The notes under the pieces: generated by a model | Database searches by the model: none | What the model was told of the DNA's origin: nothing | What the model saw: only the letters and a program-made list of their open reading frames with translations | Assembly: GCA_024697505.1 (NCBI GenBank) | Contig: JAILFQ010000056.1 | Location: 1-10,480 of the forward strand | Direction of reading: 5' to 3' | DNA from: Lachnospiraceae bacterium | Lineage (GTDB): Bacteria; Bacillota; Clostridia; Lachnospirales; Lachnospiraceae | DNA length: 10,480 nt | Made by a program: the position numbers and the translations under genes | Shown here: piece after piece, positions 1 through 10,480 of the stretch | How the letters are laid out: every line of letters begins with the position of its first letter | How positions within the stretch are numbered: position 1 is the first letter of the stretch

Positions 1-2076
1 AGGGTGGGAAAACATACAGAGTTTAAAGGTGCTATCCACGAGACTTTACAAGGAATGTATCTTCCGGTTAAAACTTTTGAGGCCTATGTTCATCATTTTG
101 GCTATGCCTATAAAAATGACGAAGAAAGGCGAAGAAAGAATGAAAGAAACTATCCAGCTCTTTTAAGAGAGCTGGAAAAGAATCCGGATGATTTACAACT
201 TCGCGCTCAGGTTGCTATGGAAATTGCAACCTTTGACAACGAAAAAGCCTATTCATTTTGTAATGAGACACTTGAAAAATTCTCTGACCGGTCCGAAAAG
301 GCGGGGTTTCAGTATCAGGTGCTGTTAATCTTCAGATTATTTGAGCCTCTTGAGAAGTCTTATGAAGAAGCAGTAGAGATTTACAAAAAATTAACCGGTG
401 AATATAAGCTCTATGAAACCGTGCTGAACGCAATCTCGCTTTTAATGGCCAGACTTTGTATATTAAGAGGAAAAAACGCTGAAGCATACAAGTATGCGGA
501 AGACTACTTTAAAAGTTACAATCGCATAAAAAATGATGAAAGGATAAAGTCTGTGGAGCTTGTGGGAGATATGGCAAGGTACACAGACAGACCGGCATAT
601 CTTGAAATGCTTGAAATAGGCGCATTTTCAGCCGCCGTATCCGGCAGGATAAATAAAGCCTTTGAGTTGTATTCCCGCATGCCGTGGGAAGATAAGGGAT
701 TTGACAGAAGAGATATTCTTGTGAGGTTCTTTTCTCTGGAAAGCAAAAATCCAAGATATGACATAATTTTTGATGTGATAAAAAAAGTAATGCAAAATGA
801 TACCCTTAAGCCGTATTTTTCTGAAATGTTAAGGAAAGAGCCATACATAAAGAACTACGTAAATTTAGCCATGCAGAAGATGAAGGAAGGCTATGTTTAC
901 AGGGAAGAGACAGAAGTGGAAAGCGAAAATGATAATGATAATAAGGAAGTATCATTTGTAAAAAGCGATATAAAGCTTTCCGTTGCCGTTATGGTTTCGA
1001 AAAAGAGCGAAAGCGTTAATAAGTGCCTTGCAAGTATAAATAAGCTTCTTGAGAAGGTTAAGGGAGAACTGATTGTTCTTGATACAAGACCGGAAGACCC
1101 TGAGAGTGCGGGAAAAGAAGCCTTTAAGTATACAGACAAAGTATACGGATTTAACTGGATAAAGAACTTTTCTGCTGCAAGAAATGAGTGTTTAAAGCAT
1201 GTAAATGGTGAATGGTTCTTATTCCTGGATGACGACGAATGGATAGAAGAACCTGAAAAATTTGCGGAATTCTTAAACAAAGAAGAAAGCAAGTACAACT
1301 CTGCTATGTTCAGAGTAAAGAACTATACGGAACAGGGATGTGCTCAAAGCGATGTAATGAGACTCGCAAGAAGAAGCGGAGAGTTACATTTTGAAGGAAG
1401 AGTGCATGAGCAGCTGAAAGGGGTATATGCCCCGTGTGCATATATAGATACCGGCATAGGCCATTCCGGGTACTATTATACTACAAAGGAAGAAGCCATT
1501 AAGCATCAGGAAAGAAACATGGCTCTTCTTGAAGAAGACTTAAAAGATAACCCGTATTCCGAGCAGACCAGAGCACAGATAGTTCAGGAGCTTGTAGCTC
1601 TGGAGGAAACAAGGCGTGCAGGATACGATTTTTGCGTAAACAGCATTTCTTTGTTAAGGGAAAAAGGCCTGCATACAGGTCCTGCATATAACTGGCTCAT
1701 TTCAATGTCTGTAAAAAGCCTTTTGTATCTTGAAAAGTATTATGAATGTATAAAGCAGGCAGAGATAATAGCCGGCGGCTTTATGATCAATGAAACCGCA
1801 GAAATGGTTATTGCCTACTGTCTTGTTCAAGCGGGATCCTGTATAGGAAATTATCCGGTTGTAACAAAAGAAACAGAGGTCTTTATAAATAAAAGAAACT
1901 GGCTTTTAGAGCACGAAACGGAAAGAAACAGGCAGTCTTTTCTGGATAATGTTGAGTTCTTTTCAATGGATATTTTAAAATCTGTTTTGGATGCCGGCAT
2001 AAAAGCGGCAGAGGGAATGAACGATAAAGAGAAGGCGTTAGATTTTAAGACCTTATTGGAGGGTAAAAATGCTTAA
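1..2076 (+). CDS. Multi-unit GT2 glycosyltransferase with TPR-like helical regions (5' end missing)
   Basis: The frame is open from the first base, and the first residues match the end of a GT2 catalytic domain, so the true start lies upstream; the GTG at base 4 is not a credible start. Order seen: the tail of a first GT2 domain (bases 1 to about 120), a helical TPR-like region (about 130-900), an acidic linker rich in Glu, Asp and Asn (about 905-950), a second GT2 domain (about 970-1430), then a second TPR-like region to the end. The second GT2 domain has NFSAARN followed by a DDDEW stretch (bases 1228-1242) that fits the metal- and donor-binding DXD site. Family knowledge: GT2-TPR proteins are cytoplasmic or membrane-associated transferases often found in surface-glycan and flagellin-glycosylation loci. 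The acceptor and sugar cannot be read from the sequence. It overlaps the next gene by 8 bases, so the two are probably translationally coupled. Confidence 0.85.
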   Translation, partial: RVGKHTEFKGAIHETLQGMYLPVKTFEAYVHHFGYAYKNDEERRRKNERNYPALLRELEKNPDDLQLRAQVAMEIATFDNEKAYSFCNETLEKFSDRSEKAGFQYQVLLIFRLFEPLEKSYEEAVEIYKKLTGEYKLYETVLNAISLLMARLCILRGKNAEAYKYAEDYFKSYNRIKNDERIKSVELVGDMARYTDRPAYLEMLEIGAFSAAVSGRINKAFELYSRMPWEDKGFDRRDILVRFFSLESKNPRYDIIFDVIKKVMQNDTLKPYFSEMLRKEPYIKNYVNLAMQKMKEGYVYREETEVESENDNDNKEVSFVKSDIKLSVAVMVSKKSESVNKCLASINKLLEKVKGELIVLDTRPEDPESAGKEAFKYTDKVYGFNWIKNFSAARNECLKHVNGEWFLFLDDDEWIEEPEKFAEFLNKEESKYNSAMFRVKNYTEQGCAQSDVMRLARRSGELHFEGRVHEQLKGVYAPCAYIDTGIGHSGYYYTTKEEAIKHQERNMALLEEDLKDNPYSEQTRAQIVQELVALEETRRAGYDFCVNSISLLREKGLHTGPAYNWLISMSVKSLLYLEKYYECIKQAEIIAGGFMINETAEMVIAYCLVQAGSCIGNYPVVTKETEVFINKRNWLLEHETERNRQSFLDNVEFFSMDILKSVLDAGIKAAEGMNDKEKALDFKTLLEGKNA
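2058..2063 (+). promoter_or_regulatory. Ribosome binding site inside the upstream gene
   Basis: GGAGGG lies 5 bases before the ATG at 2069 and inside the last codons of the upstream glycosyltransferase gene, whose TAA ends at 2076. This fixes the start of the GT2-GT11 fusion gene and suggests translational coupling of the two transferases. Confidence 0.75.
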
Positions 2077-4747
2077 GGATCAGGAAACAGCAAAAAAAAT
2101 ATACGAAATAGCAGAAACTGCCGTTGCCGCAGCCTATGAGATGCTGGATATTATAAGAGCAGGAAATACAACAGGCTACCTTGAGTATTGTGCGGCTCTT
2201 AAAACCATGCTGAAGGCAGATGCAGGTATATATGCTTCTTTAAAGAAAGAGGAAGAGGGGCTTAATACACCGGAAGTTACAGAATCTGTCCTTTGGACTC
2301 TTACAAGAATAGAAGAAAGTGTAAGGCGAGGTAATATTAACTTTGCTGTAACCAAAACGGAATTTGAACTTATTCCTCTTCTTGAAGAATTCAGAGTAAA
2401 CTTCTATTTCTGGGGACTCTGCAAAGGAGACCCTGAAAGAGAAGAGAAGTATTATAAAGAAGATATAAAAAGACTTGCAACTAACAAGTATACAGTAGAA
2501 GCGGAAAAAACAGGCAAGTATAAGTACGACATGAGTATATGCGTTGTTGGCTATAATGAACTTGAATATACAAGAGAATGTGTAGAGAGCCTTATGAAGA
2601 ACCTTCCAAAGGAGGCATCCTACGAACTTATATTCATTAATCACGGCTCAAATGATGGCACAAAAGAGTTCTTTGAACAGTTTAATCCGGATAAGCAGTT
2701 GGATATAAAGGTTAATGGTGGAGGTTTTACAGGCTTTTACAGAATAACGGAGGGAAAGTATACTCTTCTTATAAGCAATGACGTTATGGTTATGAAGAAT
2801 TCTCTTGATAACCTTTATAAATGTGCTATTGCCGATAAAAAGGCTGTTTACTGTGTACCTATGACAACCAATATATCCAATTACCAGTCTCCAAGAGTGA
2901 ATCTTAGTTGTATTGAGGCTGTTAAGGAGTATGCCGAAGAATGTAACAAAGTATCCGACCCGTTAAAATGGGAACGTAGAACTCGCCTTTGCAACCCGAT
3001 AGATATAATAAAAAGTTCTTTTATTGAAGAGACAAAGATGGCATGGTTGTATCAATCCAGGTCCTTTTTCTCATTCCCGGACGACAAGATATCCCTTCTT
3101 GCAAGAAGAGGCGGTTACCATATGTATCTTGTTAAAGATGCCTTTTGTTACCATCATGGCTCTGCAACCATCAGTAAAGAAAAGGCAATTTCAGATCAGA
3201 AGTTTTATGATCAGGGAAGAAAAGATTTTAAGGCATTATTTGGAGTCGATCCATGGTACAGACCGAATTTTTTCCCTTATCTTATGGATGTTTTAAAGCC
3301 TTCAAAAAAAGGCCATGTGGATATACTTTCAGTTGAAAGTGCAGCAGGAGCACAAGGCTTAAAAATAAAGGAAGCGTTAAAGGAAAACGCAGGAAACACA
3401 GATGTGTTCTTTAAGTATAAGTGTTTTAATCCTGCATACGCTGAAGATATTAAAGATGTGGCGGATAGAGCGGAAATAATCTCGAGTGAAAGCGAGATAT
3501 ATGAAGATAAAAAATATGATTACATACTTGTAGAGGATATAAACGGAAGCGTAGAAGCAACAAAACAAATTATACAAAATCTCTTTAATATGCTTAAAGA
3601 GGGAGGAAGGCTTATTATGGGCTTTTCCGGAACTCTTGCCATAGACATGAGAAACCCTTTAAACGAGATAGATAACATAGAATGTGAAAAATGTGTAGAA
3701 GATAAAGAATCTTCGGAAAACAAAACCTTCTACATATATAAGCGCCCGGATGGGAAGGCTAAAAAAGGCCTGAGAATAGTAAGGCTTAACGGAGGACTGG
3801 GAAACCAGTTATACCAGTATGCGTTCGGAAGAGCAATAGAAATTAAAACAGACGAGCGTGTAATATTTGATGATTCTTTCTTCTTTTTAAAAGAAGCAGA
3901 GGGAAGACATAACGGCTATGAATTGGAAAAAATATTCGGAGTAAAGCCAAAACTTCTCAGTAACGAATATTCTAAAGAAGAATGGGCAGAAATTATAAAA
4001 AAAGCAGACGAAGGAAAAAGCATACCGGACATCCTTAAAGAAAGCGGAAAAGATATATTAATGATGGTTGAATTAGATGATATGGAGTTTAAAGGCAATA
4101 AGGTTTATCTTCCTGTAGGCAGTACATCTGCTGTTATACTGGATGTTTGGGCTAAAGCGGTTGGAAACATTTATTACAACGGCTATTGGGTAACTCCTAA
4201 ACCATACGAATTTGCAAGAAAATATCTTTTTAGAGAGCTAAAGTTTAAGCCTCTTATAAAAACAGAAGGAGTACCGATCTTTGTTCTCGAACTGGAAAAA
4301 AGGATAAGGTCTTGTGACAGTGTGGCAGTGCATATAAGAAGAGGAGACTTTATAAAAGCCGGAAGAGCCCTTTCTCCGGAAAAATATGCAATGGCAATAA
4401 GAAAAATGGAAGAATTGCATCCCGGCGGGAATTATTTTGTTTTTTCGGATGATATAGAATGGTGTAAGGAAAACTTTTTAAATCTTGGATTCTCGGAAAT
4501 AATGGGAAGACTTGTGTTTGTTGAGGGCACCTGTGGAAACGGATGGAATTACCTGGACATGCAGCTTATGTCCATGTGTAACAGAATAATCTTTTCCAAT
4601 TCATCATTTGGAAACTGGGCATTTTTCTTGAACGAAATTCCGAAAAGTGTAATAGGAATATATGCAGATACATACATTGCGCTTATAAACAGACCTTCCG
4701 ATCCAAACAGGCCGTTTGAGCTCTCAATAAAAGAAATAAATCTTTAG
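2069..4747 (+). CDS. Fusion glycosyltransferase: GT2 domain plus C-terminal GT11 (alpha-1,2-fucosyltransferase-type) domain
   Basis: The 892-residue protein has four visible parts. Residues 1-150 are mostly helical with no recognised motif. Residues about 153-400 form a GT2 domain: [10 protein letters not shown] at its start, GSNDGT, SNDVMV around D238 as the DXD-like site, PDD at 337-339 and YHHGS at 361-365. Residues about 415-545 look like a Rossmann fold ending in LKEGGRLIM, as in methyltransferases, but with no clear glycine-rich SAM loop. Residues about 567-892 are GT11: [18 protein letters not shown] (572-589), HIRRGD (755-760) and NSSFGNWA (844-851). GT11 enzymes move L-fucose from GDP-fucose, usually in alpha-1,2 linkage, and the GDP-fucose genes follow directly. 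I infer that one polypeptide adds two sugars, one of them fucose. The GT2 donor and the acceptor are unknown. No signal peptide or membrane segment is obvious, so it is probably cytoplasmic. Confidence 0.88.
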
Positions 4748-4766
4748 CCAAAGAAGGAAAGCTAAT

Positions 4767-5699
4767 ATGCTTAATAAAGATTCTAAAATTTATATAGCAG
4801 GCCACAGAGGAATGGCGGGCTCTGCCATAATGAGAAAACTGAAAGAAGCGGGTTATACAAACTTTGTGGGAAGAAGTTCCGGGGAACTGGATCTTAGATG
4901 CCAGGATGCGACAATGAAGTTTTTTGAAGAAGAAAAGCCGGAAATTGTTGTGCTTGCAGCCGCAAAAGTGGGCGGAATAATGGCAAATATGGAATCCCCC
5001 GCAAGCTTTCTTTACGACAACTTAATGATAGAAGCAAACGTAATAGAAGCGGCAAGAAGAACGGGAGTAAAGAAGCTTTTGTTTCTTGGGTCCTCCTGTA
5101 TATACCCGAGACTTTCCCCTCAGCCAATGAAAGAAGAGTACCTGCTGGACGGCAAGGTGGAGCCTACAAACGAAGGCTATGCAATAGCAAAAATTGCGGG
5201 AATGAAGCTTTGCGAGATGTACAACAGACAGTACGGAACAGATTACATTAGCGTAATGCCTTGTAATTTATATGGTTACGGAGATAACTTCGACCCGGTG
5301 CGGTCCCATGTGGTGCCGGCACTTATAAGAAAGTACCACGAAGCAAAAGTATCCGGTGCTGAATCCGTTACGGTGTGGGGAACCGGAAAGGCAAGAAGGG
5401 AACTTCTTTTTACAGATGATATGGCAGATGCCTGTGTTTATCTTCTTGAAAGCTACTCCGGAAACGAATTCTTTAACGTAGGCACAGGAAAAGACGTTTC
5501 CATAGCGGAGCTTGCAAAAACTGTGGCGGAAGTAGTGGGATATGAAGGAAAAACAGAGTTTGACACGAGCAAGCCCGACGGAATGCCCCAGAAACTTATG
5601 GACTGCACAAAACTTGAAAAAGCGGGATGGAAGTATAAAACAGAATTAAAAGAAGGTCTTGCAAAGACCTATGAATGGTTCCTTAAAAACTGCAAGTAA
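4767..5699 (+). CDS. fcl: GDP-L-fucose synthase (GDP-4-keto-6-deoxy-D-mannose 3,5-epimerase/4-reductase)
   Basis: This cytosolic short-chain dehydrogenase/reductase turns GDP-4-keto-6-deoxy-D-mannose into GDP-L-fucose using NADPH. The 310 residues match the family length. The nucleotide-binding loop reads GHRGMAGSA (residues 12-20). The catalytic triad is visible as Ser110 in GSSCIYP, then Tyr138 and Lys142 in YAIAK, and [11 protein letters not shown] is the typical later signature. A GAAGGAA ribosome binding site precedes the ATG, 19 bases after the transferase stop codon. The substrate comes from gmd two genes downstream and the product is the expected donor of the GT11 domain upstream. The homologous ColC enzymes of colitose synthesis use a related 3-deoxy substrate, so a second activity is conceivable given the odd DegT-type neighbour, but the motifs look like an ordinary fucose synthase. 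Confidence 0.95.
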
Positions 5700-5717
5700 G
5701 CAAAGGAAGGCAAAGAT

Positions 5718-6917
5718 ATGGATAAAATAGGTGTTGGATATGCATCCGTAACAGATATTGAAAAGAAATATGTAATGGATGTGCTTAATAACGAAAGACT
5801 TTCCCAGGGGAAATATGTAGCGGAATTCGAAAAGAAGTTTGCGGCTTTTCACGATAAGAAATACGGTGTAGCCTGCAACAGCGGTACAAGTGCGCTTCAT
5901 CTTGCTCTGGAAACCTTAAAGGAAGTGGATAAGTGGGACGAAAATACAGAAGTTCTGGTTCCTGCAATCACTTTTATTGCAACATCCAACTCCGTAATGC
6001 ATGCAGGCCTTAAGGTAAAATTTGTGGATGTAGAGGAAGACACCTACAATATGAACCCTGATGAAATAGAAAAGCACATTACCGAAAACACACGCTGCAT
6101 TATTCCTGTACATACCTTTGGGATGCCATGTAATATGACGGCAATTATGGAAATAGCAAAGAAGCATAATTTACGAGTTGTTGAAGATTGTGCCGAAGCT
6201 CATTTTGCAAAAATTGACGGTAAGACAATAGGAAGCTTTGGAGACATTTCCGCCTTTTCCACATACGTTGCCCATACAATCACAACCGGTGTTGGCGGTC
6301 TTGTTTTAACAGATAACAGAGAAATGATGGAAATACTTCGTTCTCTTGTGGCTCACGGAAGAGCGTGCACCTGTGAAAGATGCGTTGCCTCTGACGGAAA
6401 AACGGTTTGCCCTAAGAGAATGCAGACAGAAATAGACAGAAGATTTTCTTTTATAAGAATAGGATACAGTTACAGAGTTGGAGAACTGGAAGGAGCCATT
6501 GGCCTCGGCCAGCTCGAGCGTAAAGATGAGATAATGGGTAAAAGGCACGAAAATGCAGAGTATCTTATTAAAGGCCTTGAGAAATACGAAGATCTTTTAC
6601 AGCTTCCAAGACACAAGGAAAATATAGAGCATACATATATGATGTTTCCTATACTTATAAAAAAAGGTTCAGGCCTGGATATGAAGGATATGACAAAGTT
6701 CCTTGAAAAGGCAAATATAGAAACAAGGCCTATGTTGCCGCTTCTTAACCAGCCTATTTATAAAGAAATATTTGGAGATATAGAAAAAGAATATCCGGTT
6801 GCGGAATATATAGACCACAACGGATTTTACATAGGCTGCCACCACGGTCTTACAAAGGAGCAGCTGGACTACCAAATTGCAACTATAGGAGAGTATATTA
6901 AGACGAGGAGGCAGTAA
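5718..6917 (+). CDS. DegT/DnrJ/EryC1/StrS-fold PLP enzyme with His at the lysine position; candidate sugar-nucleotide 3-dehydratase
   Basis: The fold is clear: [12 protein letters not shown] near residues 55-66, EDCAEAH at 156-162, [10 protein letters not shown] at 172-181, TTGVGG at 189-194, and an [24 protein letters not shown] region near 246-265. The residue that forms the Schiff base with PLP in aminotransferases of this family is here His186 ([11 protein letters not shown]). Family knowledge: the same Lys-to-His change marks ColD and RfbH/E1, which remove the sugar C3 hydroxyl through PMP chemistry and do not perform a net transamination. Cysteines at 158, 217, 219, 222 and 231 recall the Fe-S ligands of E1. 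Automatic annotation would probably call this an aminotransferase. Because it lies between fcl and gmd, GDP-4-keto-6-deoxymannose is the likeliest substrate, which would give a ColD-like 3,6-dideoxy product. That substrate is inferred. At 399 residues it is close to ColD and shorter than RfbH. Confidence 0.85.
6905..6911 (+). promoter_or_regulatory. Ribosome binding site for gmd
   Basis: GAGGAGG lies 7 bases before the ATG at 6919, within the last codons of the DegT-fold gene. The stop codon (6915-6917) and the next ATG are separated by one base, so the two genes are probably translationally coupled. This selects 6919 as the gmd start. Confidence 0.75.
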
Positions 6918-6918
6918 A

Positions 6919-7971
6919 ATGTGTAAAGTAGCATTAATTACAGGTATTACGGGGCAGGACGGTTCCTTTCTTGCAGAGTTTTTGCTTGAAAAAGGATACG
7001 AAGTACATGGAATAGTAAGAAGAGCGTCTTCTTCAAATACATCCAGAATAGATCATCTTATAAAAGAAGGCAAACTACATCTTCACGACGGAGACCTTGC
7101 AGACTCTTTGTCAATAATAAGAGTCGTAGATCTTGTAAGACCTACGGAAATATATAATCTGGCTGCTCAGTCCCATGTTCAGGTATCATTTGATGTGCCG
7201 GAGTATTCGGGAGACGTTAATGCCATTGGTGTTTTAAGGATATTGGAGGCTGTAAGAGCGGTCGGGCTTACCGGTAAAACAAAGATTTACCAGGCCTCCA
7301 CTTCAGAACTCTTTGGAAAAGTGGAAGAGGTTCCGCAAAGAGAAACAACTCCTTTCCACCCATACAGCCCTTATGCGGTTGCAAAGCAGTACGGCTACTG
7401 GATGATCAAGGAGTACAGGGAAGCTTACGGAATGTTCGCCGCAAACGGAATACTCTTTAACCACGAATCTGAAAGACGCGGAGAGACCTTTGTTACAAGA
7501 AAGATCACTCTTGCTGCGGGAAGGATAGCAGAAGGTCTGCAGGATCACCTGGAGCTTGGAAATATGGATTCTTTAAGAGACTGGGGATATGCCAAGGACT
7601 ATGTTGAGTGCATGTGGCTGATCCTCCAGCAGGATAAACCGGATGATTATGTTATTGCAACAGGTGTACAACATACGGTAAGAGAGTTTACAACGCTTGC
7701 TTTTAAAGCAAACGGAATTGAGCTGGAGTTTAAGGGGGAAGGTATTAACGAGAAGGGTTACGACAAAAAGACCGGAAAGATGCTTGTTTCAGTAAACGAA
7801 AAGTGGTTTAGGCCTACAGATGTTGTAAACCTTTTGGGGGATCCTACAAAGGCAAAAACAAAGCTTGGTTGGAATCCGCAGAAAACAAGTTACGAAGAAC
7901 TTGTAAATATAATGGCAACACACGACAGAAAACTTGCCAAAAGAGAAAAAGCTCTTGCAGAAATAGACTAA
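6919..7971 (+). CDS. gmd: GDP-mannose 4,6-dehydratase
   Basis: This cytosolic NADP-dependent SDR enzyme converts GDP-D-mannose to GDP-4-keto-6-deoxy-D-mannose, the branch point to GDP-fucose, GDP-perosamine, GDP-rhamnose and GDP-colitose. The 350 residues fit the family. The N-terminal loop GITGQDGS occupies residues 9-16, followed by [15 protein letters not shown], a Gmd hallmark. The active site shows Thr128-Ser129-Glu130 in ASTSELFG and Tyr152/Lys156 in [23 protein letters not shown] and [11 protein letters not shown] are further family signatures. The gene starts one base after the DegT-fold gene ends and is followed by manC, which supplies its substrate. No truncation or unusual active-site residue is seen. 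Confidence 0.96.
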
Positions 7972-7992
7972 ATGTAAACAAGGTGGTTTATT

Positions 7993-9324
7993 ATGAATTA
8001 TATTCTTCTTTCCGGGGGTTCCGGAAGGAGGCTTTGGCCTCTTTCAAATGATGTAAGATCCAAACAATTTATAAAGATTTTTAAAGCTCCGGACGGAAAC
8101 AGGGAATCCATGCTTATGCGTATGTACAGAGGCATAAAGGAAGAAGATAAAAACGCTTTTATTACGGTTGCTACCGGAGAGAGCCAGATTTCAGCAATAC
8201 AGAACCAGCTTGGGGATGAAGTAACAATTTCCAAAGAACCTTGCAGAAGAGATACATTTCCTGCCATTGCCCTTGCTGCGGAATTTCTTCTTTGCGAATG
8301 TAAAAGAAGCAAGGAAGAAGCAGTAATAATATGCCCTGTGGACCCATATGTGGACAGTGAGTATTTTAAACGTTTAAAAGACCTGGAAAAAGAAATAGCC
8401 GGGGGAGATGCAAACCTTGTGCTTATGGGGGCGGTGCCTACCTACCCAAGTGAAAAGTACGGCTATATTTTACCGGAAAAAGAAAGCCTCGGAAAAGAAG
8501 TAATAAAAGTATCCCGCTTTAAAGAAAAGCCTACTGCGGATGAAGCCAAAGAACTTATTGAAGAAGGTGCTCTTTGGAATACAGGTGTGTTCGGAATGAA
8601 GCTTGGATACATAAGCGGCAAGGCACATGAACTTATAGACTATAAAGATTACAAGGATTTATTTGAGAAATATAAAGATCTTAACAAGATAAGCTTTGAC
8701 TATGCTGTGTCGGAAAAAGAAACTGACATTAAGGCAATAGAGTTCGAAGGGAACTGGAAAGACCTTGGTACATGGAATACTTTTACGGAAGCCATGTCCG
8801 AAAGAAGTGTGGGAAAGGCTATTCTTTCCGACAGCTGCGAGAATGTTCACGTAATCAACGAACTGGACGTTCCCGTATTTACAATGGGTTTAAAGAATGC
8901 GGTTGTTTCTGCAAGCCCTGAAGGAATAATAGTTACGGATAAAGAACAATCATCATTTATAAAGCCTTATGTGGATGAGATAAGACAGGAAATAAGATTT
9001 GCGGAAAAGTCCTGGGGGTCTTACCATGTACTTAACGTGGAAAACGAAAGCCTTACCATTAAGGTTACCTTAAGACCGGGGCATAAAATGAATTACCACA
9101 GCCATGAAAGAAGAGATGAGGTTTGGAACATCATTAGCGGGGAAGGACTTGCGGTTTTGGATGGCAAGAAAATTGAGGTTAAACCGGGTGATGTTTTAAG
9201 AATGCCTGCCGGTTGCAGGCACACAATACGCGCTTACAAGGAGCTGAAGATCATAGAAGTCCAACTTGGAAAGGATATATCTGCAACGGATAAGCAGGTA
9301 TATCCTCCCTTGGAGGACAATTGA
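7993..9324 (+). CDS. manC: Mannose-1-phosphate guanylyltransferase with C-terminal mannose-6-phosphate-isomerase-type cupin
   Basis: The N-terminal nucleotidyltransferase domain (about 1-280) makes GDP-mannose from mannose-1-phosphate and GTP. It opens with LLSGGSGRRLWPLS (residues 5-18) followed by SKQF (23-26), and also shows CPVDPYV, EKYGYI, FKEKP, LWNTGVF and the late WKDLGTW motif. A cupin domain occupies about 330-440, with His369, His371, Glu376 and His410 placed to bind a metal as in type II phosphomannose isomerases (YHSHERRDEVW, then PAGCRHTI). At 443 residues it is a little shorter than the 465-480 usual for bifunctional ManC/AlgA, so isomerase activity is possible but not certain. 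An AAGGTGG ribosome binding site (7980-7986) supports the ATG at 7993. It feeds gmd directly upstream. No phosphomannomutase gene is in the window. Confidence 0.92.
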   Translation: MNYILLSGGSGRRLWPLSNDVRSKQFIKIFKAPDGNRESMLMRMYRGIKEEDKNAFITVATGESQISAIQNQLGDEVTISKEPCRRDTFPAIALAAEFLLCECKRSKEEAVIICPVDPYVDSEYFKRLKDLEKEIAGGDANLVLMGAVPTYPSEKYGYILPEKESLGKEVIKVSRFKEKPTADEAKELIEEGALWNTGVFGMKLGYISGKAHELIDYKDYKDLFEKYKDLNKISFDYAVSEKETDIKAIEFEGNWKDLGTWNTFTEAMSERSVGKAILSDSCENVHVINELDVPVFTMGLKNAVVSASPEGIIVTDKEQSSFIKPYVDEIRQEIRFAEKSWGSYHVLNVENESLTIKVTLRPGHKMNYHSHERRDEVWNIISGEGLAVLDGKKIEVKPGDVLRMPAGCRHTIRAYKELKIIEVQLGKDISATDKQVYPPLEDN

Positions 9325-9361
9325 CAGCTTGTTAATATAAAGAAAAACAGGAGGAGAAAAT

Positions 9362-10138
9362 ATGAAGGTTGTACTGCTTGCAGGAGGACTCGGAACAAGA
9401 ATATCCGAAGAAACACAGATTAAACCAAAGCCAATGATAGAAATAGGCGGAAAGCCAATCCTTTGGCATATAATGAAGGAATATTCCTATTATGGATTTA
9501 ACGATTTTATTATTTGTGCCGGTTATAAACAGCATATTGTAAAGAAGTGGTTCGCCGATTATTTTCTTAATAACTCCGATGTGACTTTCGATTTTACAAA
9601 GGGTGCCAATGATATGGAAATACATAACCACTATTGTGAACCCTGGAAGGTTACCGTTGTGGACACAGGACTTGATACTATGACCGGCGGAAGAATAAAG
9701 AGAATACAGCCGTATGTTGGAAATGAAACTTTTATGATGACTTACGGCGATGGCGTTTGCGACGTAAATATAAAAGAACTTGTTAAGTTCCATGAGGGAC
9801 ACGGCAAGATGGCAACCCTTACGGCAGTTATGCTGGAACAGCAAAAAGGGATACTTGATATTGGCGGAGACAACGCGGTAAAGAGCTTCAGAGAGAAGAA
9901 TATTTCTGACGGCGCACCTATAAATGCAGGCTATATGGTACTTAGTCCAAAAGTTTTCGACCTTATTGAGGGGGATAAAACGGTATTTGAAAAGGAGCCT
10001 CTTGAGTGGCTTGCAAATAACGGCGAGCTTATGTCTTACAGACACAAGGGCTTTTGGCAGTGTATGGACAACAAGAGAGAAATGGACATGCTTGAAAAGC
10101 TTATAGAAACAGGCCACGCACCGTGGATTAAGTGGTAA
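9362..10138 (+). CDS. rfbF: Glucose-1-phosphate cytidylyltransferase
   Basis: It makes CDP-glucose from glucose-1-phosphate and CTP, the first step towards CDP-3,6-dideoxyhexoses such as abequose, paratose, tyvelose and ascarylose. The 258 residues match RfbF length. The nucleotide-binding signature AGGLGTRISEETQIKPKPM covers residues 7-25, and MMTYGDGVCDVNI (125-137) holds Asp130 and Asp134, typical of RfbF. PLEWLANNGELMSYRHKGFW near the C-terminus is also family-typical. A strong AGGAGGAG ribosome binding site (9349-9356) sets the start. The 37-base gap after manC is the longest in the window and separates the GDP-mannose branch from the CDP branch, but no convincing promoter or terminator lies in it. 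It is followed 15 bases later by the start of rfbH, as in known dideoxyhexose loci. Confidence 0.95.
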   Translation: MKVVLLAGGLGTRISEETQIKPKPMIEIGGKPILWHIMKEYSYYGFNDFIICAGYKQHIVKKWFADYFLNNSDVTFDFTKGANDMEIHNHYCEPWKVTVVDTGLDTMTGGRIKRIQPYVGNETFMMTYGDGVCDVNIKELVKFHEGHGKMATLTAVMLEQQKGILDIGGDNAVKSFREKNISDGAPINAGYMVLSPKVFDLIEGDKTVFEKEPLEWLANNGELMSYRHKGFWQCMDNKREMDMLEKLIETGHAPWIKW

Positions 10139-10145
10139 AGAGGAG
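10137..10145 (+). promoter_or_regulatory. Ribosome binding site for the rfbH-type gene
   Basis: AAAGAGGAG overlaps the rfbF stop codon and lies 8 bases before the ATG at 10154. It supports that ATG as the start of the truncated last gene and suggests coupled translation with rfbF. Confidence 0.7.
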
Positions 10146-10153
10146 TATATTTT

Positions 10154-10480
10154 ATGGAAAAGTGGACGAACGAAGAAGAGGCAAGAAAAAAGATAAAGGA
10201 ACTTGTAACGCAGTATTACCACGATTTTAAGGAAAAAAAGAAGCCTTTTGAAGAAGGTGACAGAGTTTCTTACGCATCCAGAGTATATGATGAAAAGGAA
10301 ATGTGTGCCCTTACGGATGCAACTTTGGATTTCTGGCTTACTACCGGAAGATTTGCAGAAGAGTTTGAAAAGAACTTTGCTGAATTTCTTGGTGTAAAGT
10401 ACGCCCATCTTGTAAACAGCGGATCCTCTGCCAATCTTATAGCATTTTCCGTTCTTACCGCAAAGGAACTTGGGGAAAGA
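10154..10480 (+). CDS. rfbH: RfbH-type CDP-4-keto-6-deoxyglucose 3-dehydratase, N-terminal part (3' end cut by window)
   Basis: 109 codons are present before the edge, with no stop. The N-terminus fits RfbH: a helical lead with LVTQYYHDF, then KPFEEGDRVSYASRVYDEKE, the TDATLDFWLTTGRFAEEFEK block (54-73), and the PLP-domain motif VNSGSSANLIAFS (87-99). Family knowledge: RfbH/E1 is a PMP- and [2Fe-2S]-dependent enzyme that, with a ferredoxin-type reductase (E3, RfbI or AscD), removes the C3 hydroxyl of CDP-4-keto-6-deoxy-D-glucose. The catalytic His and the cysteine ligands would lie beyond the edge and cannot be checked. Its place next to rfbF strongly supports the CDP-3,6-dideoxyhexose pathway; the rfbG dehydratase needed between their reactions is not in the window and is expected downstream. 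Confidence 0.9.
   Translation, partial: MEKWTNEEEARKKIKELVTQYYHDFKEKKKPFEEGDRVSYASRVYDEKEMCALTDATLDFWLTTGRFAEEFEKNFAEFLGVKYAHLVNSGSSANLIAFSVLTAKELGER

Follow-up and report, generated by a model that had tools for sequence, protein, structure and literature searches.

A DegT-fold enzyme with histidine at the cofactor lysine site is a probable 3-dehydratase of the colitose pathway

What does a DegT-fold enzyme do when a histidine stands where the sugar aminotransferases hold the lysine of pyridoxal 5'-phosphate (PLP)? The question is raised by a gene, here called X, that lies between fcl and gmd on a contig of a Lachnospiraceae bacterium (assembly GCA_024697505.1, contig JAILFQ010000056.1); the window, that is, the whole stretch of DNA analysed, comprises positions 1 to 10,480 of that contig. 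Judging from sequence comparison, X is probably the 3-dehydratase of a colitose pathway, acting on GDP-4-keto-6-deoxymannose. We favour this assignment because of His186, the lineage to which X belongs, its neighbours, natural gene fusions, its exchange with the 3-dehydratase ColD, and a C-terminal NGxxxGxH stretch. The relevant features of X are these:

5718..6917, plus strand: X, His-type DegT-fold enzyme, proposed GDP-4-keto-6-deoxymannose 3-dehydratase (399 residues; PF01041, 325 bits)
6189..6194, plus strand: Cys158-Ala159, the Cys invariant, the Ala at the place of E1 Cys193
6273..6275, plus strand: codon CAT of His186, at the place of the PLP lysine (alignments; invariant among listed members)
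6366..6410, plus strand: cysteine loop C217-x-C219-x2-C222-x8-C231 (alignment with E1; conservation)
6840..6842, plus strand: His375 within [10 protein letters not shown], a C-terminal stretch like NGLFVGNHQ of ColD and unlike TFWIGIYPG of RfbH

Direct reading of the open reading frame (ORF) at 5718-6917 on the plus strand, which reads [15 protein letters not shown], bears out that codon 186 is the CAT at 6273-6275. The first-pass annotation of this DNA had equated the encoded histidine with His220 of the dehydratase E1 (RfbH) and with His188 of ColD. Indeed, phmmer aligns H186 with the first of the two His in 'YPAHHITMG' of E1 (entry 3bcx), the mutant lysine of the E1 H220K entry 3bb8 occupies exactly the same column, and H186 aligns with His188 of ColD from E. 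coli O55. The H220K change is reported to cost E1 its catalytic dehydration (PMC8987622). The 62-residue spacing given there for RfbH, counted inclusively and running from the ED glutamate to the leading Cys of the CxC pair, is shared by X (E156-C217) and Salmonella RfbH (E190-C251); the distance from ED to the histidine is equal in the two proteins, with no gap between. All of the checkable sequence statements made about X hold.

Conservation was followed in two sets. The X family set is the best 120 of 4916 matches, all at least 72% identical to X and including the window's own protein (the 4916 include other DegT proteins); the second consists of 120 listed homologues of a query from Solidesulfovibrio magneticus that is 37% identical to X. 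His186 is invariant in 120/120 of the former, and its equivalent is histidine in 120/120 of the latter, so that it is no chance feature. The Glu of TTGEGG (position 192) is replaced in the X family by Val (73), Ile (46) or Thr (1 of the 120 listed). A substitute active-site lysine was considered and dropped: across 53 copies of X, which are those of 58 loci less two duplicates and three partial copies, K3 is the only invariant lysine and position 16 is Lys or Arg, leaving no other candidate for an internal aldimine. X has the fold of the DegT sugar aminotransferases, with His186 instead of their catalytic lysine. A fold comparison returned GDP-perosamine synthase as the best match; aminotransferase and dehydratase are inseparable by this means. 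The earlier view that the aminotransferase label is likely wrong, and that X probably forms a 3-deoxysugar, is supported by the histidine at the PLP-lysine site, the lack of a conserved active-site lysine and the grouping of X with dehydratases.

That grouping comes from a tree of 47 rows, 17 of them X and six of Lys type. The X clade (100/99) lies outside a joined group of ColD and RfbH (100/99), and a branch (98/93) divides the X, ColD and RfbH rows together from the six of Lys type, which carry a long-branch warning. From this placement X is a third His-type lineage beside ColD and RfbH, apparently an uncharacterised one; among the matches listed from the open-access literature, no title describing the family was met. 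An identity of X as a ColD orthologue was rejected on the same placement. The X subclade that branches deepest consists of three loci (locus and genome numbers are prefixed L and G), L052, L055 and L060, and may make another sugar. The Solidesulfovibrio row joins X weakly (81/49), and a Streptomyces RfbH encoded beside dTDP-sugar genes fell in the RfbH clade.

Known systems resemble X in part. ColD (WbdK; E. coli O55, Yersinia) shares the His for Lys, an Fcl/ColC-type partner, the C-terminal NGxxxGxH, and the proposed substrate and product, but it is 31% identical to X, forms a separate clade, and has Asn-Cys at 158-159 and no loop cysteines where X has Cys158-Ala159 and a four-Cys loop. Of the traits of the ColD family, a nearby gmd and colitose-synthase-type gene are present at X loci, whereas the lack of an iron-sulfur (Fe-S) cysteine loop is contradicted by four invariant loop cysteines in X. 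E1/RfbH shares the His column, a CxC pair at equal distance and a later Cys (Salmonella RfbH is 34% identical), and RfbH (NF011936) is the top NCBIfam model for X; in contrast, X has Ala for Cys193, an extra Cys222, a short insertion, a GDP rather than CDP gene context, and an NF011936 score of 264.4 bits, low against a cut-off of 423. By the description in parts of PMC8987622, SpnQ is also His-type with Fe-S cysteines, but acts on a TDP-sugar in an antibiotic pathway. The C3-dehydratases of Campylobacter 3,6-dideoxyheptose synthesis, as described in portions of PMC10440746, are GDP-linked, use PLP and glutamate and are followed by an epimerase and a reductase, as proposed for X, yet take a heptose; two H3 protons near 2.1-2.2 ppm are reported there for the 3-deoxy-4-keto-heptose. 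GDP-perosamine synthase differs in its catalytic Lys186 (entry 3dr4 is titled K186A) and, in the phmmer alignment, in having no Cys loop. The Solidesulfovibrio subfamily has the His and the CxCx2Cx8C loop in 120/120 listed homologues, although it is 37% identical, has Ala-Ala at 158-159 and keeps the Glu at 192. Its listed homologues, called aminotransferase or transaminase where they bear a name, include several Thermodesulfobacteriota and other delta-proteobacterial names; the S. magneticus gene itself (L068:11989-13194, plasmid pDMC1) adjoins one annotated GDP-L-fucose synthase.

The substrate is suggested by the genes around X, which in the window are the following:

2069..4747, plus strand: GT2 plus GT11 glycosyltransferase (28% identity to an E. 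coli O55 gene product over residues 570-854)
4767..5699, plus strand: 'fcl', GDP-4-keto-sugar epimerase/reductase and proposed GDP-colitose-forming partner (55% identical to E. coli Fcl, 39% to ColC)
5175..5177, plus strand: Gly137 of the 'fcl' product (NEGYA), ColC-like; most control Fcl proteins have Ala or Pro
5262..5264, plus strand: Cys166 of the 'fcl' product (MPCN), ColC-like; most control Fcl proteins have Thr
6919..7971, plus strand: gmd, GDP-mannose 4,6-dehydratase, which would make the proposed substrate (TIGR01472, 519.5 bits, cut-off 415)
7993..9324, plus strand: manC-like mannose-1-phosphate guanylyltransferase with cupin domain (TIGR01479, 175 bits, under the cut-off of 373)
9362..10138, plus strand: rfbF, glucose-1-phosphate cytidylyltransferase, with which a separate CDP-sugar branch begins (TIGR02623, 365 bits, cut-off 300)
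10154..10480, plus strand: N-terminus of a canonical RfbH/E1, 109 residues, cut by the contig end (NF011936 positions 4-108, 1.3e-33)

A profile scan of genome contigs with a 34-row alignment gave 55 loci; together with two duplicates and the window they make 58, of which 56 are distinct (L003 equals L013 and L004 equals L032 in coordinates). Their titles name Lachnospiraceae, Oscillospiraceae, other Clostridia, Selenomonadaceae, Treponema, Pelosinus, Fonticella and others. Neighbours were counted in the 40 loci that extend 3 kb or more to each side of X, the window included. A fcl/colC-type gene (product FCL) lies within 3 kb of X in 38/40 and gmd within 10 kb in 37/40, while manC is found within 10 kb in 30; every counted FCL and gmd, and 29 of the 30 manC genes, are on the strand of X. 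The two loci that miss FCL are L018, whose nearest lies 3.8 kb away, and L060, which has none; gmd is absent from the available DNA of L046, L047 and L049. Outside the 40, L052 and L055 show no FCL, gmd or manC in the 6.8 and 9.6 kb present on one side. This context suggests GDP-4-keto-6-deoxymannose as the substrate of X. A small cupin gene stands between X and FCL in L019, L020, L024 and L035, and L025 and L034 have an X-FCL gap of the same size. In the cupin protein of L024, Polysacc_synt_C and Cupin_2 score above cut-off and FdtA just below; such a protein might alter the sugar as a ketoisomerase or epimerase.

The companions of X are FCLs of two kinds, Fcl-like (e.g. that of the window) and truly ColC-like. 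With the NCBIfam model GDPFucSynFcl (cut-off 500), the window 'fcl' product scores 484 bits, the L053 fusion of an FCL with X 482 and ColC 304. Five loci (L045, L046, L047, L049 and L050) carry both kinds, the ColC-like one at X and the Fcl-like one about 1 kb off. Complete in-frame ORFs join a ColC-type FCL to X in L045, L046, L049, L050 and L059 (707-709 residues) and an Fcl-type FCL to X in L053 (720 residues), and in the partial fusions of L047, L048 and L056 a C-terminal FCL part runs into X. In each of the L059 and L053 fusion proteins Pfam detects an Epimerase and a DegT domain, and the FCL part of L059 is 55.7% identical to ColC of E. coli O55. Since eight of the nine fusion records are from Selenomonadales or Selenomonadaceae and one is from Quinella, the fusions may reflect few events.

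Four sites set E. coli Fcl (Pro/Thr/Pro/Thr) apart both from ColC (Gly/Cys/Ser/Met) and from the window FCL (Gly137/Cys166/Ala209/Met273), which is thus mostly ColC-like at them; sites 137 and 166 adjoin the conserved Tyr138 and Asn167. We scored them as Gly, Cys/Ala/Ser, Ala/Val and Met, by which ColC itself scores 3; the sites were picked after inspection. At least three of the four colitose-type residues occur in 38 of the 44 distinct FCLs within 600 bases of X (40/46 with duplicates), in 0/10 of the more distant FCLs of those loci, and in 2/29 control FCLs taken from relatives, where one of the two lies next to a ColD. The exceptions near X are L026, L033, L042, L053, L057 and L058. The FCL of L104 has the signature, yet its 4 kb hold no DegT gene. 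An FCL tree of 82 rows was built without the four signature columns. With Ser also accepted at the third site, it calls for 7 changes of the signature, 3 of which are forced by starred branches, and the pairs available to an independent-pairs test are too few to be decisive; the tree omits six rows (the L102 duplicate, L003, L004, the divergent FCLs of L017 and L018, and one of L103). At L017:6583-7509 lies a second FCL homologue with changed conserved residues, Tyr at Cys111, Ala at Asn167 and Thr at His181 (window FCL numbering), perhaps a repurposed or decaying enzyme.

The control FCL next to a ColD belongs to G123, a genome of the same order. It is 65% identical to that of the window, the best match among 145 relatives searched, carries Gly137, Cys166, Ala209 and Met273, and directly follows a ColD without a Cys loop, which shares 55% identity with the O55 enzyme. 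G123 has no X, its sole match to an X query at 1e-40 being this ColD; conversely, a ColD query gave no match above 37% identity in the 12 genomes that carry X. Such an exchange, seen in one genome, is the pattern expected if X and ColD perform the same step.

On the model of ColD and E1, as set out in excerpts of PMC8987622, pyridoxamine 5'-phosphate (PMP) in X would form a ketimine with the C4 ketone of the sugar, His186 would deprotonate the cofactor, and the hydroxyl at C3 would depart. The deoxygenated intermediate would then be freed as GDP-4-keto-3,6-dideoxymannose, of which the adjoining Fcl/ColC-type enzyme would invert C5 and reduce C4 to yield GDP-L-colitose. Every chemical step, the product and the cofactor of X we infer from these analogues.

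The Fe-S ligands of E1 are, as we take them to be numbered, C193, C251, C253 and C261, each of which is also Cys in Salmonella RfbH. In X, C217 and C219 match C251 and C253 without gaps and C231 matches C261 after a short insertion; C222 is additional, and C193 is replaced by Ala159. X thus holds four cysteines of its own within 15 residues. C158, C217, C219, C222 and C231 are kept in 120/120 X-family members listed, where 117 have Ala and 3 have Ser at position 159, and the four loop cysteines together with the histidine are invariant in all 240 listed members of the two subfamilies. As X lies outside the ColD and RfbH group, a root among the Lys types would most simply make the CxC loop an ancestral trait that ColD has lost. 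X is possibly iron-sulfur dependent, and we lean slightly towards a loop that carries, as in E1 and SpnQ, a cluster delivering electrons from general ferredoxins over a structural one. No homologue of the Salmonella RfbI-type E3 reductase was found in the 58 loci at 1e-5, nor a full-length one in the 12 X genomes, 3 of which gave partial reductase-domain matches; the source genome of the window is 70% complete. The loci with a canonical E1 likewise lack E3 nearby, so that its absence near X says little. Any electrons required by X or by its RfbH neighbours would have to come from a general ferredoxin/flavodoxin system, as for SpnQ, which in the account given in parts of PMC8987622 works with general ferredoxin or flavodoxin reductases.

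Taken to its full extent, this reading makes X a third 3-dehydratase lineage that combines a GDP-sugar with an Fe-S cluster whose ligands are rearranged, CxCx2Cx8C lying within a single loop and the distant ligand of E1 being exchanged for another residue. General ferredoxins would supply the electrons, and X would make GDP-colitose in Clostridia, Selenomonadaceae and Treponema, sometimes as a fused dehydratase-reductase; as a whole we put this reading forward tentatively. A serious possibility, if short of a probable one, is that X catalyses the same C3 dehydration in a redox-neutral manner, as ColD does, with glutamate regenerating PMP and with cysteines that bind zinc or stiffen the loop; substrate and product would be the same. 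The closest functional counterpart, ColD, needs no cluster according to sections of PMC8987622, one E1 ligand is Ala in X, and no complete E3 accompanies it in the loci and genomes searched. However, invariant cysteines throughout both subfamilies, two of them aligned with E1 ligands, are harder to reconcile with a merely structural loop, and canonical RfbH copies also stand without a nearby E3. It is unlikely, though less remote than the readings considered next, that X dehydrates another GDP-sugar or that its product does not lead to colitose but to a 3,6-dideoxyheptose, say, or to a 3,6-dideoxyhexose with another epimerisation, for example through the cupin. Such a course is suggested by the GDP-heptose C3-dehydratase of C. 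jejuni (PMC10440746, in part), by the cupin gene in four loci and by the pairing of X with fucose-type FCLs in some; Gmd and manC accompany X, though, and the ColC-type fusions point to colitose.

That X is a lysine-free sugar aminotransferase, as database names say, is very improbable. Named entries among the matches listed are indeed called aminotransferase or perosamine synthetase, GDP-perosamine synthase is the best fold match, and SpnQ is reported in passages of PMC8987622 to transaminate when no reductase is present; yet X has no conserved active-site lysine, groups with the dehydratases, and is fused to, and exchanged with, partners of the colitose pathway. Least credible is that X serves as the E1 dehydratase of the CDP-glucose branch beginning with the window rfbF. 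RfbH gives its best NCBIfam score and rfbF lies 2.4 kb from X, but that score is below the family cut-off, and a separate canonical RfbH begins right after rfbF at the contig end, on which ground this candidate was dropped. The CDP branch, a second 3,6-dideoxyhexose branch on this contig, seems to have its own dehydratase. Since X and a canonical E1 also occur together in five other loci (L010, L027, L040 of Selenomonas ruminis, L041 and L042), the two coexisting dehydratases plausibly serve one nucleotide each.

The distribution of X appears patchy. At E 1e-110 it was found in 1/398 genomes of a phylum survey, its own; among relatives, 4/61 matched at 1e-60, its own genome included, and one of the four is a canonical RfbH by motif. 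Thirty stretches of viral contigs fit a pattern, and none is a relative. The O55 gene matched by the window 2069-4747 protein is annotated alpha-1,2-fucosyltransferase and lies in the ColC/ColD cluster. Upstream of the GT2-GT11 protein, a further GT2 protein occupies 4-2076. GT2 proteins with tetratricopeptide (TPR) repeats are reported for flagellar glycosylation islands of Clostridium in PMC13317340; Pfam, the only test made, found no TPR repeats in the window proteins. Flagellin is encoded in 12/12 X genomes but also in 40/61 relatives (three X genomes among them), so that its presence alone says little about X. It lies on the X contig within about 31 kb in four of the 12 (G014, G541, G548 and G549). 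In a Pelosinus metagenome-assembled genome (L051:12149-12559 onward), a flagellin gene, with what by eye resembles a von Willebrand-type insert, follows about 1 kb downstream of X, which may feed a flagellar glycan there.

If the assignment is true, at least 120 protein clusters, all at least 72% identical to X and called aminotransferase where they bear a name, would be reassigned to deoxysugar formation. Colitose, described in PMC8987622 from the lipopolysaccharide of E. coli, Yersinia, Salmonella and Vibrio, would extend to the surfaces of commensal Firmicutes. The well-characterised 3-dehydratases compared in that source act on GDP-sugars without a cluster (ColD) or on CDP- and TDP-sugars with one (E1, SpnQ), and X would break this link. 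The natural fusions of X are candidate one-polypeptide routes to GDP-colitose.
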